Below, in pieces: positions 24,256 to 32,535 of a stretch of DNA of 32,590 bases. This stretch comes from Chloroflexota bacterium (GTDB lineage Bacteria > Chloroflexota > Dehalococcoidia > Lucifugimonadales > UBA3495). The number at the start of each line of letters is the position of its first letter. Positions within the stretch are counted from its first letter, which is position 1. Below the pieces are notes generated by a model. That model was not told the DNA's origin and did not search any database. It worked only from the letters and a program-made list of their open reading frames with translations. The stretch lies in contig JADFJS010000004.1 in assembly GCA_022566155.1 (NCBI GenBank), positions 1 to 32,590 on the forward strand, in the 5' to 3' direction. Position numbers and translations under genes: made by a program.

Positions 24256-25188
24256 GTGGTCCACAAGCTTAGGCCCGGCCTGCTCATCCTCATCGGTGGT
24301 CTGCTGGTGTTTCTCCTGGCCGCCTGCACGGCTTCCCCAACATCGACGCCCCTGGGCATATCTCCAACCTCGACTCCCCTGCCCACCGGCCCGGAGGTCG
24401 GTGTGATCGTCATCAGTACCGACCTGGCGGTTGGCGTCAACCGGGTGGTATTCGGGCTGGTGGACCGGGAAGGCATGCCGGTGCGATCTTCCGGGGGCCA
24501 AGCCGAGGTGCAAGCGGCGATCTTTATCTCAGGGCAAGAGGCCGCAGAGGTACGGCACTCGGCCACCGCCCGGTTCATGCGCTGGCCTACGGGTTCTCAG
24601 GGCGTCTTCACCGCCAGCCTGGAGCTGGATACGGCGGGGTTCTGGCAACTGCAGGTAAGCATCGCCAGCGAGGACAGAGGGCTGGTGGAGGCGGTTGGAG
24701 CTTTCGAGGTTAAGGAGAGATCCGATACCCCGTCCATCGGGGAACGGGCCCCGGCCAGTATAACCCCCACACTGGCCGGCGTTGAAGACCTTGCCACCAT
24801 CACCAGCTCTCCGGTTCCCGACCCGGACCTGTACCGGCTATCCGTTCACCAGGCCCTGGAAGCAGGCAAGCCTCTGGTGGTCGTGTTCGCCACTCCGGCA
24901 TTCTGCATAACCGCCACGTGCGGCCCCCAGGTTGAGGTAGTATCCCAGCTCAAGGAGCGATTCCAAGACCGGGCCAACTTCATCCACGTGGAGGTGTTTG
25001 AGGATCCCCACGTGATCGAAGGAGGCCGCCCCACCGGTGGATTCGTACCAGCGGTTTTGGAATGGAACCTGCCCACGGAGCCGTGGACCTTTGTCCTGGA
25101 CCGGGCAGGCCGGGTGCAAGCCAAGTTCGAGGCATTTACCACCCTAGAGGAGCTTGAGGACGCGTTGCAGAAAGTCCTAGATTCCTAA
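24256..25188 (+). CDS. Lipoprotein with C-terminal thioredoxin-like domain (CITATC)
   Basis: Signal/lipobox LLVFLLAAC; C-terminal GKPLVVVFATPAFCITATCGPQVEVVSQLKERF...EPWTFVLDRAGRVQAKFEAFTTLEELEDAL. GTG start. Confidence 0.8.
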   Translation: MVHKLRPGLLILIGGLLVFLLAACTASPTSTPLGISPTSTPLPTGPEVGVIVISTDLAVGVNRVVFGLVDREGMPVRSSGGQAEVQAAIFISGQEAAEVRHSATARFMRWPTGSQGVFTASLELDTAGFWQLQVSIASEDRGLVEAVGAFEVKERSDTPSIGERAPASITPTLAGVEDLATITSSPVPDPDLYRLSVHQALEAGKPLVVVFATPAFCITATCGPQVEVVSQLKERFQDRANFIHVEVFEDPHVIEGGRPTGGFVPAVLEWNLPTEPWTFVLDRAGRVQAKFEAFTTLEELEDALQKVLDS

Positions 25189-25881: not shown

Positions 25882-26865
25882 ATGGCGATAGCCCAAGCCA
25901 GTTCCCCTATGCCTCAGGCCAGGGGTGTGTCCACCTGGTATCGCAACCTGGCCTTGCTGACGGCGTTGTCGGTGTTCGCGCTGGTGGTGCTGGGCGGCGT
26001 GGTGCGAGTAACCGGATCTGGGCTAGGCTGCCCGGACTGGCCTCTATGTTACGGCGGGATTCTCCCGCCGCTCCAGACCGAAGCGATCGTGGAATTCTCT
26101 CACCGGCTACTGGCCTCGGCGTTGGTCGGACCCTTGGTATTGGCCCTCTGCGTAGCCGCCTGGATCTTCCACCGCGATAAGGGCTGGCTGCTTGTCCCGA
26201 CTACCTTGGCTGTAGTCCTCACGCTGGGGCAGGCTATCCTTGGAGGAGCAACGGTGCTAAACGAGCTCCCGGCAGGGGCGGTGGCTGCCCACCTGGCCCT
26301 GGGCGAAGCCCTGCTGGGGTGTATGGTCTTTATCCTTATAACGGCCTGCGTCGGTCCACCTTTGTTTGGGTCCACCGCCGTCAGGAGAGGGGGCAGCGGA
26401 GCCTTCCCAAAGCTGGCCGTGGCTTCCGCGTTGGCCGTCTATGGCATTCTGCTCACCGGCTCCTACGTCGCCGTCTCCAACGCCACCTGGGCCTGTACCG
26501 ATTGGCCTTTATGCAACGGCAACTTATTTCCAACCGAAAAACTCGCTGCGATTCACATGGCCCATCGTATGGCAACCGTGGTCCTGGGCCTGTTCGTCAT
26601 GTACGTTCTGCACCTGGGCTTGCGCCGAGGACGCCAGCCGATGGACGTACGGCTGCTCTCCATGGCGGCGACCGCCCTGTTCCTGGCCCAAGTTATAGTG
26701 GGAGCGCTGACCATCTGGCTGAAATTTCCGGAGGAGATTCGGGCTTTGCACCTCGCCCTGGGAACCGCGGTATGGGCGGCAATGGCAGGACTGGCGGCGC
26801 TAAGCCTGGCCCCGAGGGATCAGGCTGGATGGGATCAGGCCGGCTCGGAGACGGTCCATGCTTGA
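25882..26865 (+). CDS. ctaA: Heme A synthase (COX15/CtaA family)
   Basis: GGVVRVTGSGLGCPDWPLCYG...EFSHRLLAS...; second half GSYVAVSNATWACTDWPLCNG...HMAHRMATVVLG. Confidence 0.92.
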   Translation: MAIAQASSPMPQARGVSTWYRNLALLTALSVFALVVLGGVVRVTGSGLGCPDWPLCYGGILPPLQTEAIVEFSHRLLASALVGPLVLALCVAAWIFHRDKGWLLVPTTLAVVLTLGQAILGGATVLNELPAGAVAAHLALGEALLGCMVFILITACVGPPLFGSTAVRRGGSGAFPKLAVASALAVYGILLTGSYVAVSNATWACTDWPLCNGNLFPTEKLAAIHMAHRMATVVLGLFVMYVLHLGLRRGRQPMDVRLLSMAATALFLAQVIVGALTIWLKFPEEIRALHLALGTAVWAAMAGLAALSLAPRDQAGWDQAGSETVHA

Positions 26866-27775
26866 CCAGAGACCGCTGGCAGCACCAAATCTGGCCAAAT
26901 TGGCGACGGCGGCAAAGGTCGCTAACGATTATCTGACCCTGACCAAGCCGCCCATCATCCTATTGTTGTTGGTAACCGCCCTGGGTGGCATGTTCCTGGC
27001 CGCTCAGGGATTTCCCTCGCTCAGGGTGGCCATACTTGTTTGCTTGGGCGGCGCCCTGGGTGCCGGAGGCGCAAACGCACTGAACCATTTCCTGGACCGC
27101 GACATCGACCAATTGATGTCCCGCACCGCGCAGCGTCCGGTGCCGTCGCAACGGATCTCACGCCGAGACGCCTTCGCCTTCGGTATCCTGCTGAACCTGC
27201 TCGCATTCCTGATCTTGGCCGCCTGGGTCAACCTGCTTGCCGCCATACTCACCCTGGCGGCGACGCTGTTCTACATCCTGGTCTACACCAACTGGTTGAA
27301 GCGCACAACGCCCCACAACATCGTCATCGGCGGCGCGGCCGGGGCCATACCCCCTCTGGTGGGTTGGGCCGGCGTTACCGGCGGGCTCGACCTGCCCGCA
27401 CTGTACCTGTTTACAATCGTATTTTTCTGGACTCCTCCCCATTTCTGGGCCCTGGCTCTGCTTATTCAGGACGACTACCAGCGCGCCGGTATTCCGATGC
27501 TGCCGGTGGTTGCCGGCCGGGAATACACCGTTTTAAACATCTTTCTCTACTCCATCGTCCTGGCAGCCCTCGCCATGATGCTGGCGATCACACCTGCCGC
27601 CGGTTGGCTCTACCTGGGGTCGGCGGCGCTGCTGGGCGCCGTGTTCCTGGCCCTCGCGTGGCGGTTGAAACGAGACCCGTCTACCCGGCACGCCAAGAAC
27701 CTGTACCTTTATTCTCTTCTGTACCTGGCGCTGCTATTCGTTGCCATGATGGTGGACAGCACGGTAAGATTATGA
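26858..27775 (+). CDS. ctaB: Protoheme IX farnesyltransferase
   Basis: TKPPIILLLLVTALGGMFLA; NALNHFLDRDIDQLMSRTAQRPVPSQRI; FFWTPPHFWALAL. Overlaps the ctaA 3' end by 8 nt. Confidence 0.95.
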   Translation: MLDQRPLAAPNLAKLATAAKVANDYLTLTKPPIILLLLVTALGGMFLAAQGFPSLRVAILVCLGGALGAGGANALNHFLDRDIDQLMSRTAQRPVPSQRISRRDAFAFGILLNLLAFLILAAWVNLLAAILTLAATLFYILVYTNWLKRTTPHNIVIGGAAGAIPPLVGWAGVTGGLDLPALYLFTIVFFWTPPHFWALALLIQDDYQRAGIPMLPVVAGREYTVLNIFLYSIVLAALAMMLAITPAAGWLYLGSAALLGAVFLALAWRLKRDPSTRHAKNLYLYSLLYLALLFVAMMVDSTVRL

Positions 27776-27933: not shown

Positions 27934-29145
27934 ATGGGGTGGTTCGCCATCCGGCCAGCATATTCTAAGGCTCCGGCCAGGCTTCCTACATCTTCTCTGC
28001 GTGAGAAAGAGGGGGAAGCACACCCTATTCCTCATAAAGCACTTATCAGCCGCCGCTGGGCGCATCTGGGCATAATGGCCCTCTTTTTGTTGCTGGCGGT
28101 CGGCTGCTCAACCGCCCGGCAGTCCACCTTTGACCCGGCAGGCCCGGTTGCCAGCAAGCAGCTAGAGCTGTTCAATGTGCTGCTGTGGGTGATGGTAGCG
28201 GTGTTTATCCTGGTGGAAGGGGCGCTGCTCTACGCCATAATTCGCTTCCGCCGCCGCCCCGGCCAGGAACTACCGGCTCAGACCCACGGGCATCTAACCC
28301 TCGAGATTGTCTGGACCATCGTGCCGACCATCCTGATAATGGCTCTCGGGATCTGGACGGTTTTCGCCATATTCGATCTGGAAGAGCCGCCGGCTTCGGC
28401 GGACAACATTCTGGACGTCACGGTGACGGCCCACCAATGGTGGTTTGAATTTGAATACCCAGATGCGGGAGGCGGCAAACGAATCACCACCGCCAATGAG
28501 CTGAGAATACCGGTGGACGTTCCGGTAAGGCTCACTTTATTGAGCGATGATGTGATCCACAGCTTCTGGGTCCCCAAACTTGCCGGCAAACTCGACATGA
28601 TCCCCACACGGTCCAACCAGATGTGGTTGCAGGCCGACGCCAACAAAATCGACGAATATCCGGCCACATTCTTCGGCCAATGCGCCGAGTTCTGTGGCAT
28701 AGCCCACGCCCTTATGAGGTTCCGGGTTATCGTTTTTGAGCAGGATGAATACGATGCATGGGTTCAGAATTACGGCGAGCCTCCGGCAACATCTGAACAG
28801 GCTCAGCGAGGCAAGGCGGTCTTCGGCCAATGTGTGATGTGCCACACCATTGATGGCGGGGATGACCGAGAGTTGCAAGCTGGCCGGCTGGACGCCTTTC
28901 TGATAGGGGGCGCCCTGGTTCCCGCGCCAAACCTCACCGACCTGCGCACAAGAAGTACCTTGGGCGCCGGACTGATGGACTTGAATACGGAAAATCTGCG
29001 TTTGTGGTTAAAGAACCCAGACGATGTGAAGCCGGGGAACAGCATGTCGGATCGGGCTGCCCATCTTTATTCTGATGGGTCCGATATCTCCCTCAGCGAG
29101 GACCAGCTGAACGACATCATTGCTTACCTTTTGAACTTGCAGTAG
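27934..29145 (+). CDS. coxB: Cytochrome c oxidase subunit II with C-terminal cytochrome c domain (caa3-type)
   Basis: CuA motif GQCAEFCGIAHALM; CVMCH heme c motif at 28831-28845 with downstream KPGNSM; lipobox-like LLLAVGC. Start may be 28075. Confidence 0.94.
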   Translation: MGWFAIRPAYSKAPARLPTSSLREKEGEAHPIPHKALISRRWAHLGIMALFLLLAVGCSTARQSTFDPAGPVASKQLELFNVLLWVMVAVFILVEGALLYAIIRFRRRPGQELPAQTHGHLTLEIVWTIVPTILIMALGIWTVFAIFDLEEPPASADNILDVTVTAHQWWFEFEYPDAGGGKRITTANELRIPVDVPVRLTLLSDDVIHSFWVPKLAGKLDMIPTRSNQMWLQADANKIDEYPATFFGQCAEFCGIAHALMRFRVIVFEQDEYDAWVQNYGEPPATSEQAQRGKAVFGQCVMCHTIDGGDDRELQAGRLDAFLIGGALVPAPNLTDLRTRSTLGAGLMDLNTENLRLWLKNPDDVKPGNSMSDRAAHLYSDGSDISLSEDQLNDIIAYLLNLQ

Positions 29146-29240
29146 ACTGATTTGACACTACTTCCTGCGGCATTATTGAAAGCAAGCGGCCGGTCTGGGA
29201 CCGGCTTTACATGGACCTTGGGGAGCATCGGAGACGGGCG

Positions 29241-31082
29241 ATGGCAGCGATAACAGACGTACTGGCTAGGCCCACCGGCTACAGCGGAATCTGGAGTTGG
29301 CTGACCACGGTGGACCATAAACGCATCGGCCTTTTATACGGCTTTTCCGCCTTTGCCTTCCTGTTGATCGGCGGGATTGAAGCCGGGGTCATGCGCATGC
29401 AGCTATCCCAGGCCGACAACAGCCTGGTGGATCCCGCAACCTTCAATCAGATGTTCACCATGCACGGCACCACCATGATCTTCATGGCGATCATGCCGTT
29501 GAGCGCCGCCTTCTTCAACCTGATAGTTCCCCTGGCAATCGGCGCCCGTGACGTAGCTTTCCCCCGGTTGAATGCATTCAGTTACTGGGCCTTCCTGTTC
29601 GGCGCCCTGCTGATGCATTCCAGCTTCCTGGTAAACCAGGTCCCCGACGCGGGCTGGTTCTCATACGCCAACCTGACGGAAAAGCCCTTCAGCGGCAACG
29701 ACGCCATGGACTTCTGGGCCCTTGGCTTGCAGGTGCTGGGAATCTCATCGCTGGCCGCCGGGTTCAACTTCATTGTCACTATCATCAACATGCGTGCGCC
29801 CGGCATGCATCTGATGCGGATGCCCGTATTCATCTGGATGACCCTGATCACATCCATCCTGCTGGTGCTGGCGTTCCCGGTAATCACCGTGGGCCTTATC
29901 GAATTGACCATGGACCGGAACTTCGGCACCCACTTCTTCATCCCGGCCTCCGGCGGCGACCCGATACTCTGGCAGCACCTGTTCTGGGTGTTTGGCCACC
30001 CCGAAGTCTACATCCTGATCCTACCGGCGATGGGGATAGTGTCCGAGGTATTTCCGACCTTCTCGCGAAAGCCCTTGTTTGGCTATCCTTTTATAGTTTT
30101 CTCCGGGATCGTCATCGGGATGATGGGCTGGGCCGTGTGGAGCCACCACATGTTTACCGTGGGGCTGGGCTCCATCGCCACGTCCGTATTCGTGATCACC
30201 ACCATGTTGATCGGCGTGCCCACCGGGGTCAAGATATTCAACTGGATCGCAACCATGTGGGGCGGATCGATCACCTTCAGCACGTCCATGTTGTTCGCCA
30301 TCGGCTTTGTGGCCCTGTTCATCGTCGGAGGTCTCAGCGGGGTGTCCCACGCCGTGGCGCCTTCGGACCGGCAGCAGCAAGACACCTACTACATAGTGGC
30401 CCACCTCCACTATGTGCTCTTCGGCGGATCGCTCATGGGGCTGTTTGCGGGCGTCTACTACTGGTTCCCCAAGTTCACCGGCAAGTTGATAAGCGAAAAG
30501 CTCGGCAAGTGGCACTTCTGGCTGTTCTTTATCGGGATGAACGTCACCTTCTTCCCGATGCACTTCGTCGGCCTCAACGGCATGCCGCGCCGCATCTATA
30601 CCTACTCCTCCGATTACGGTTGGGAGTGGCTGAACATGCTGTCATCAGCGGGCTACTTCATAATCTTCCTGGGGGTCATCATATTCATGGTCGCGTTCGT
30701 TCGCGCCATGCGTAATGGCCGCCCCTCCGGCCACGACCCCTGGGACGCCCCTGGCCTGGAATGGAGCATCTCGTCGCCTCCGCCCGAGTACAACTTCGCC
30801 GAGATCCCTCAGGTAGAGGGCCTCGACCATTACTGGATCATGAAGCGCCGGGCTGCCGCCGAAGGCAACCCTATCACGCGGCCGGAGCCCCACGTGGACC
30901 CACGTACGATCCACATGCCCAGCCCATCCTACTGGCCTCTGATAGTAGCCTTTGGCACGATCTGGCTCGCGGGAGGCCTATTGACCCACTACGCCCTGAG
31001 CTTCATGGGCGGGATAATCGTCATCATCGGAATCGTGGGATGGGGCAACGAACCGCCCACCGCCCGCGATCCCCAACATTAG
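29241..31082 (+). CDS. coxA: Cytochrome c oxidase subunit I
   Basis: TTVDHKRIGLLYG, MHGTTMIFM, FGHPEVYILILPAMG, WSHHMFTVG, DTYYIVAHLHYVLFGG. Start at 29211 also possible. Confidence 0.96.
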   Translation: MAAITDVLARPTGYSGIWSWLTTVDHKRIGLLYGFSAFAFLLIGGIEAGVMRMQLSQADNSLVDPATFNQMFTMHGTTMIFMAIMPLSAAFFNLIVPLAIGARDVAFPRLNAFSYWAFLFGALLMHSSFLVNQVPDAGWFSYANLTEKPFSGNDAMDFWALGLQVLGISSLAAGFNFIVTIINMRAPGMHLMRMPVFIWMTLITSILLVLAFPVITVGLIELTMDRNFGTHFFIPASGGDPILWQHLFWVFGHPEVYILILPAMGIVSEVFPTFSRKPLFGYPFIVFSGIVIGMMGWAVWSHHMFTVGLGSIATSVFVITTMLIGVPTGVKIFNWIATMWGGSITFSTSMLFAIGFVALFIVGGLSGVSHAVAPSDRQQQDTYYIVAHLHYVLFGGSLMGLFAGVYYWFPKFTGKLISEKLGKWHFWLFFIGMNVTFFPMHFVGLNGMPRRIYTYSSDYGWEWLNMLSSAGYFIIFLGVIIFMVAFVRAMRNGRPSGHDPWDAPGLEWSISSPPPEYNFAEIPQVEGLDHYWIMKRRAAAEGNPITRPEPHVDPRTIHMPSPSYWPLIVAFGTIWLAGGLLTHYALSFMGGIIVIIGIVGWGNEPPTARDPQH

Positions 31083-31094
31083 GAGATTCTAGAA

Positions 31095-31712
31095 GTGGCT
31101 CACGCCGCCGAACACGAATACACCACCACCGGGCTCAACCACCGCAAGCTGCTAATGTGGGTGTTTCTTGGGTCCGACTGTATGTTCTTTGCGTCTCTGA
31201 TCGCCACCTACATGGTCTACCGGGGACAGAGCCTTAACGGCCCATACCCGATAGATATCATCGACGTTCCGCTAACCACCATCAGCACCTTCGTCCTGCT
31301 CATGAGCAGCTTCGCAATGGTGCAGGCCCTCTCGGCCACGAACGCCAACAACCAGCGGGGCATTCGTATCTGGCTGTTTGTCACCATCATCTTGGGTGGG
31401 ATATTCATCGCATTCCAGGCGTACGAGTTCAACGCTTTCAAGAACGAAGGCCTGACACTGGGCGTCAACCTCTTCGGCGCCACATTCTTCACCCTGACCG
31501 GTTTCCACGGGGCTCACGTGGCGCTGGGATTGATCTGGTTGACCGCCCTCTTGATCCTGGGATTCAAGGGCCGATTGAGCCCCGCAACTAGCCTGGACGT
31601 GGAGATTGCCGCTCTTTACTGGCACTTCGTGGACATCGTCTGGATCGTCATCTTCACGCTGCTCTATCTCATTGCCGGGTTCGATACAGGGCCGGCGATC
31701 GCCGCCGGTTGA
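31095..31712 (+). CDS. coxC: Cytochrome c oxidase subunit III
   Basis: HRKLLMWVFLGSDCMFFASLIATYMVYRG...FTLTGFHGAHVALGLIW...YWHFVDIVWIVIFTLLYLI. Confidence 0.94.
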   Translation: MAHAAEHEYTTTGLNHRKLLMWVFLGSDCMFFASLIATYMVYRGQSLNGPYPIDIIDVPLTTISTFVLLMSSFAMVQALSATNANNQRGIRIWLFVTIILGGIFIAFQAYEFNAFKNEGLTLGVNLFGATFFTLTGFHGAHVALGLIWLTALLILGFKGRLSPATSLDVEIAALYWHFVDIVWIVIFTLLYLIAGFDTGPAIAAG

Positions 31713-31749: not shown

Positions 31750-32535
31750 ATGACAGATAGCCATGAGGTGCAACACGACCGTCACCCCACCTTCCTCCAG
31801 TACGTGGTGGTGGCGATCCTATTGTTTGCAATAACCATAGTCGAGTTCCTGTTGATCTGGCAGCCTGCAGGCATCGTCGACAATCTAGGCGCGTCCAAGG
31901 TGCCGCTTCTGATCGGCCTGTCCACGGTCAAGTTCGCCGTGGTCATAATGTTCTACATGCACCTCAAGTTCGAATCCTGGATCTTCTCCGGCGTATTTCT
32001 AGCCGGACTGGTGCTGGCTTTCGCCGTCGGCATAGCTGTACTGAGTCTATTCGTGGCGCTGGGAGGGGAACCTAGAGAATTCGCCGAAGCTAACCGCGTC
32101 GCCTACGCGCATGAAGACGAGGAGGCCGCGCCGGCTGCGGCCGAAACAGCCACGGCGCCCCTAGCGGCGGGCGCAACTTTGTCCATTACCACCGAAGGCG
32201 ACGCCCTGAAATTCAGCGTCGGCACGTTAACCGCCAAGGCCGGCGGGGAGGTGGTTCTGACGTTCACCAACGCAGCCGCCACCCAATCCCACAACTGGGT
32301 ATTGGTGAAGGCCGAAGACAAGGCAGGCGTCGTTGCCGACGGCACCGGTGCCGGACCGGCGAACGACTGGATCAAGCCGGATGACTCCAGAGTGATCGCC
32401 CACACCAAGCTTGTCGGCCCCGGAGAATCCCAAGAGCTGCGCTTCCCCGCCCCGCCTGCCGGCGCTTACCAGTTTGTGTGCACCTTCCCCGGGCACGCTG
32501 GAGGCATGACCGGGGAATTCCAGGTAACTCCGTAA
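31750..32535 (+). CDS. Cytochrome oxidase subunit IV-like membrane protein fused to an azurin/auracyanin-like cupredoxin domain
   Basis: N-terminal three-TM region with VKFAVVIMFYMHLKFE (COX4/CyoD-like) followed by cupredoxin SHNWVLV...DWIKPDDSRVIAHTKLVGPGES...YQFVCTFPGHAGGMTGEFQVTP with His/Cys/His/Met type-1 copper ligands. Confidence 0.9.
   Translation: MTDSHEVQHDRHPTFLQYVVVAILLFAITIVEFLLIWQPAGIVDNLGASKVPLLIGLSTVKFAVVIMFYMHLKFESWIFSGVFLAGLVLAFAVGIAVLSLFVALGGEPREFAEANRVAYAHEDEEAAPAAAETATAPLAAGATLSITTEGDALKFSVGTLTAKAGGEVVLTFTNAAATQSHNWVLVKAEDKAGVVADGTGAGPANDWIKPDDSRVIAHTKLVGPGESQELRFPAPPAGAYQFVCTFPGHAGGMTGEFQVTP

Follow-up and report, generated by a model that had tools for sequence, protein, structure and literature searches.

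The fourth subunit of bacterial oxidases is commonly regarded as a small protein free of cofactors, and we know of no caa3 oxidase carrying a cofactor on it. Sulfocyanin (SoxE), which works with the SoxM oxidase of Sulfolobus, is a blue copper protein serving a heme-copper oxidase, but it is a separate protein and the domain described below is of azurin type. The caa3 oxidase of Rhodothermus marinus resembles the locus studied here in its subunits I to IV and in a subunit II that bears both CuA and heme c; it works with alternative complex III (ACIII), ActE has been postulated as its donor, and the ActA of that organism lacks the sixth heme (PMC8552683). In Chloroflexus, ACIII is described as a menaquinol:auracyanin oxidoreductase, with auracyanin its partner (PMC3150298), and in Roseiflexus electrons pass from ActE to auracyanin (PMC8552683). 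The auracyanins of these two genera come from the same phylum as our locus, provide its nearest solved fold and are among its nearest sequences, but they are separate soluble or membrane-anchored proteins. Chloroflexi nitrite reductases fused to a cupredoxin or a cytochrome c share the phylum and the trend of adding redox domains; the enzyme is different, and the part of that source covered here describes no subunit IV fusion (PMC8756737).

We analyzed a 32,590-nucleotide stretch of a Chloroflexota genome (hereafter the window) that contains an oxidase operon on the forward strand, in the order ctaA-ctaB-coxB-coxA-coxC-subunit IV. The first two genes encode a heme A synthase (25882–26865; Pfam COX15-CtaA) and a UbiA-family prenyltransferase of heme O synthase type (26858–27775; Pfam UbiA), the role of the latter being assigned by gene order. 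They are followed by coxB (27934–29145; Pfam COX2, COX2_TM and Cytochrom_C), with a CuA motif and the CxxCH of a C-terminal heme c domain, by coxA (29211–31082; Pfam COX1, and NCBIfam CtaD_CoxA above its cut-off) and by coxC (31095–31712; Pfam COX3). With subunits I and III present and a subunit II combining the CuA motif with a fused heme c, the gene content is that of a caa3-type oxidase. Upstream of ctaA, positions 24256–25188 (+) encode a lipoprotein-like protein of 310 aa whose C-terminal half looks thioredoxin-like, with a CITATC motif; its Pfam matches, YtkA and Redoxin, are sub-threshold only, and it is possibly a candidate copper or thiol assembly factor of the oxidase.

The last gene of the operon (31750–32535, +) encodes subunit IV fused to a cupredoxin. 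Its single unbroken frame of 261 aa had been noticed in an earlier, sequence-only reading, which saw in residues ~1–105 an oxidase subunit with three membrane helices, in the C-terminal part a cupredoxin with all four type 1 copper ligands, and an Ala/Glu-rich linker between the two; each of these elements was borne out. COX4_pro (PF03626) matches residues 19–92 (31804–32025; E 3.6e-9, 37.3 bits against a cut-off of 28.9), and hydropathy finds three hydrophobic segments (residues 12–43, 48–72 and 74–108), in line with the helices of the AlphaFold2 model; the Pfam match, the three helices and the position after coxC are those of a prokaryotic subunit IV. Copper-bind matches residues 145–259 (E 5.3e-14), also above the curated Pfam cut-off. 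Between the two lie a post-membrane motif, EPREFAEANRVAYAH (residues 107–121, 32068–32112), recognized when related sequences were set side by side, and the linker (residues 117–139, 32098–32166), modelled as disordered with pLDDT below 50.

The cupredoxin domain occupies residues 140–261 (32167–32532) and is modelled with pLDDT of about 82–95. Its predicted copper ligands, H181 (32290–32292) and C244, H249 and M253 of the CTFPGHAGGM loop (32479–32508), are invariant in an alignment of 14 copper-type proteins. By sequence, the nearest solved structures are the lipid-modified azurin of Neisseria (3ay2) and auracyanin A (2aan), and the top Foldseek matches of the model are auracyanins and azurins, with TM-scores of 0.90 and 0.93 on the target for auracyanins 6kol and 2aan and an rmsd of 1.2 Å. 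Together, the Copper-bind match, the fold and the His/Cys/His/Met ligand set fit a type 1 cupredoxin that is predicted to bind copper.

The likeness to azurin noted in the initial reading can be refined. The ligand spacing and the KPDD..VIAHTKL region are shared with the azurins and lipid-modified azurins of Pseudomonas and Neisseria, and an azurin is among the nearest sequences; unlike azurin, however, the domain is fused to a membrane subunit, has a single Cys, so that no disulfide can form, and scores 81.3 bits with the NCBIfam azurin equivalog TIGR02695, below its cut-off of 105.1. Because of this score, the domain was not filed as an azurin, and "azurin/auracyanin-type cupredoxin" is the safer name. 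The sulfocyanin family SoxE (PF06525) gives no Pfam match in the window protein.

To place the fusion in its evolutionary context, we sampled 50 genomes from 17 genera of the window's family of SAR202-related Chloroflexota, nearly all of the genomes compared being metagenome-assembled. Subunit IV was found in 45 genomes, and in all 45 it bears a C-terminal redox domain, a cupredoxin in 14 and a cytochrome c in 31. The copper fusion occurs in four genera (g1, g3, g5 and g7), each time in one frame without internal stops, and its recurrence in 14 genomes rules out an assembly or frameshift artefact as its source. The 31 proteins of the second type have a CxxCH cytochrome c at the equivalent site, confirmed in examples by Pfam Cytochrom_C, with a Met following about 58–66 residues on. 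Cofactor ligands are complete in both types and the membrane core is common to them. Where known caa3 oxidases have, to our knowledge, a subunit IV free of cofactors, that of this family has its own copper or heme domain. After the third helix, both types have in most genera the motif PRx(F/Y/W)(A/S)...(A/V)xP(Y/F), weak at most in genus g14 and absent from the plain subunits IV that were set beside them from the order's other families.

Subunits IV of this kind were not found in five of the 50 genomes. No CoxA was matched in two of these, the incomplete genomes G017 and G452, and in G019 the contig ends at the site. The other two, G005 and G015, lack any recognized subunit IV of related sequence, and the sole CoxA found there (L180 and L181) shares 41–42% identity with that of the window; this CoxA evidently belongs to a different oxidase, though both genomes keep ActE. 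Two further genomes deserve mention. G031 has a subunit IV with two tandem cupredoxins, both with complete copper ligands (L129:5860–7191, +; the same protein as L071 and L004), and G012 has two nearly identical heme-type operons on two contigs (L110 and L111), which may have been duplicated recently or may stem from redundant strains in the assembly.

We studied the history of the exchange with a phylogeny calculated from a concatenation of CoxB, CoxA and CoxC. The window's family forms one clade (100/100), within which the heme-type genera g14 and g15 are nested in a copper-rich clade that is itself supported at 100/100. Grouping the family's copper types into a single clade was rejected (AU p 1.2e-9), which implies, if the trees are right, at least three module changes within the family. 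In a tree of the subunit IV cores alone, based on a short alignment, the single copper clade was not rejected (p 0.10); there, the core nearest to the window's by tree path is a heme-type protein of g15 (L122), and the nearest by percent identity is copper-type (L127, 66% over 119 columns). The direction may have been a single replacement of heme by copper with two returns, or several gains of copper.

The modules themselves were also compared. The g15 heme module groups with the other modules of the family, and that of g14 is very divergent. An origin of the subunit IV heme modules by copying from CoxB is unsupported, as they form a clade separate from the CoxB hemes (100/99). The cupredoxin tree, whose sequences are short and whose branches are long, speaks weakly against a single origin of the family's fused domains (p 0.017), and any number given for separate fusion events depends on such short domains.

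The copper domain does not stand in for the heme c of CoxB. In the operons surveyed, heme c is retained on every readable CoxB, and the CuA motif is present in all of them except L110 of G012. Since CoxB keeps its own heme c, the redox module on subunit IV is an addition to the usual relay and no substitute for it, and the proposal of two redox relays outside the membrane held at the level of the sequences. Why a second arm should be needed beside the CoxB heme c and CuA is not obvious.

The domain is probably an extra electron-entry arm of the caa3-type oxidase, a tethered type 1 copper module that can be exchanged for a cytochrome c, as genera of the same family suggest. We infer the outer-side location, the direction of electron flow and the docking partners. 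As the attachment of heme c takes place exclusively outside the membrane, its presence at the equivalent site in sister genera points to an outer location; three helices with a presumed inner N-terminus, as in CyoD of Escherichia coli, would point the same way. The C-terminus of subunit IV would thus lie on the outer (P) side and hold the copper domain on a flexible tether. There, electrons originating from ACIII could reach it either from ActE or by way of free azurin-like proteins, and would go on to CoxB, to its heme c or its CuA. Within the family the arm is exchangeable: most genera have a cytochrome c in this place, and others have a cupredoxin.

The proposed source of electrons can be examined in the genomes. 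In that of the window, ActE is matched at G000:C122:8135–8620, and the same contig bears an act-type operon that encodes, beside other act-type products, an ActA-like protein with five CxxCH motifs, lacking the sixth heme as in Rhodothermus; the window's genome encodes ACIII. ActE was matched in 47 of the 50 family genomes, the exceptions being G002, G017 and G024. In two genomes (G005 and G019), the act cluster contains an ActE-like mono-heme cytochrome c fused to an azurin-like cupredoxin (L135:5671–6726, +, and L136:5373–6347, −), the gene in G005 adjoining one that matches Pfam ActD. Among the genomes on the tree, 13 of the 14 copper-type and 4 of the 25 heme-type ones encode free azurin-like proteins (Fisher p 3.5e-6), of which several have lipoprotein-like N-termini and one lies at G000:C112 in the window's genome. 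This is an association that, with phylogeny respected, comes down to three independent pairs (1–3 agreeing, none opposing) and is not significant.

These data bear on whether the arm receives electrons from ACIII at all. It could instead be a port for another donor, a separate oxidation pathway acting through free azurin, with ACIII using the heme c of CoxB; that heme is retained and could serve ACIII alone, and the free azurin-like proteins do go with the copper type. The ActE–cupredoxin fusions, however, tie this type of cupredoxin to ACIII, and beside the few free azurins examined we found no gene for a donor enzyme. We therefore consider such a port unlikely, although donors other than ACIII might also reduce the copper domain.

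The sequence-only reading had left open whether the domain delivers electrons or stores copper. A copper store or chaperone, supplying CuA or CuB during assembly, would suit a copper protein encoded within the operon of a copper enzyme. The exchange of copper for heme argues for electron transfer and against storage, as the cytochrome c that occupies the site in the 31 heme-type genomes cannot store or supply copper, and the invariant H, C, H, M ligands make up the closed type 1 set of electron-transfer proteins. Electron delivery is the half of the earlier alternative favored by the sequences, and storage is very improbable. We give least credence to a mainly structural domain, a handle docking ACIII to the oxidase with a metal dispensable for turnover: it would agree with the modelled flexible tail and with the known ACIII–oxidase supercomplexes (PMC8552683), but pure docking would not require the full conservation of cofactor ligands seen here in two unrelated folds.

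Redox modules on subunit IV are also found outside the family. Within the same order, families f10, f12, f13 and f15 have heme-type subunits IV. An azurin-type fusion was found in SP4220 (L007), which groups with a plain-subunit-IV genome at 100/100; the most plausible view is accordingly that this fusion arose separately. Two genomes of g180, a genus of the class that belongs to family f33, have a subunit IV with a different, sulfocyanin/SoxE-like cupredoxin (L183:6089–6844 and L184:5992–6708, both +) with the loop CNVPGHYQLGM; Pfam identifies Copper-bind and SoxE, the latter as PF06525 in L183, and the fusion is independent of that in the window's family. No further full-length match was seen among the 44 genomes of f33, with G377 masked there. 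In wider samples, where the longest open frames alone were inspected, 20 long-frame candidates from the class yielded fusions in g180 only, and 20 examined from 400 genomes drawn across the phylum yielded none, their long frames being overlaps or N-terminal extensions.

In the open-access literature, which leaves most subscription journals outside, we found no report of a copper or a heme fusion to subunit IV, nor anything on the fusion among works on SAR202 with cupredoxin, auracyanin or azurin. A redox domain on subunit IV whose metal is exchanged in place constitutes a natural experiment on the interchangeability of heme c and blue copper at one enzyme, and offers a concrete model for the wiring between ACIII and the oxidase in uncultured SAR202-related bacteria. 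More tentatively, subunit IV could be a recurrent outer-side landing place for heme c, azurin-type and sulfocyanin-type modules that switch with the pool of mobile carriers between ACIII and the oxidase, giving the enzyme two covalent entry arms; we regard this wider reading as possible, with the balance somewhat against it.

Azurin-like cupredoxins attached to other proteins were also observed in genomes labelled Opitutia and Akkermansia (L016:5929–8745, +, and L031:1975–6396, +), one cupredoxin being C-terminal on a 1473-aa protein and the other N-terminal on a 680-aa protein.
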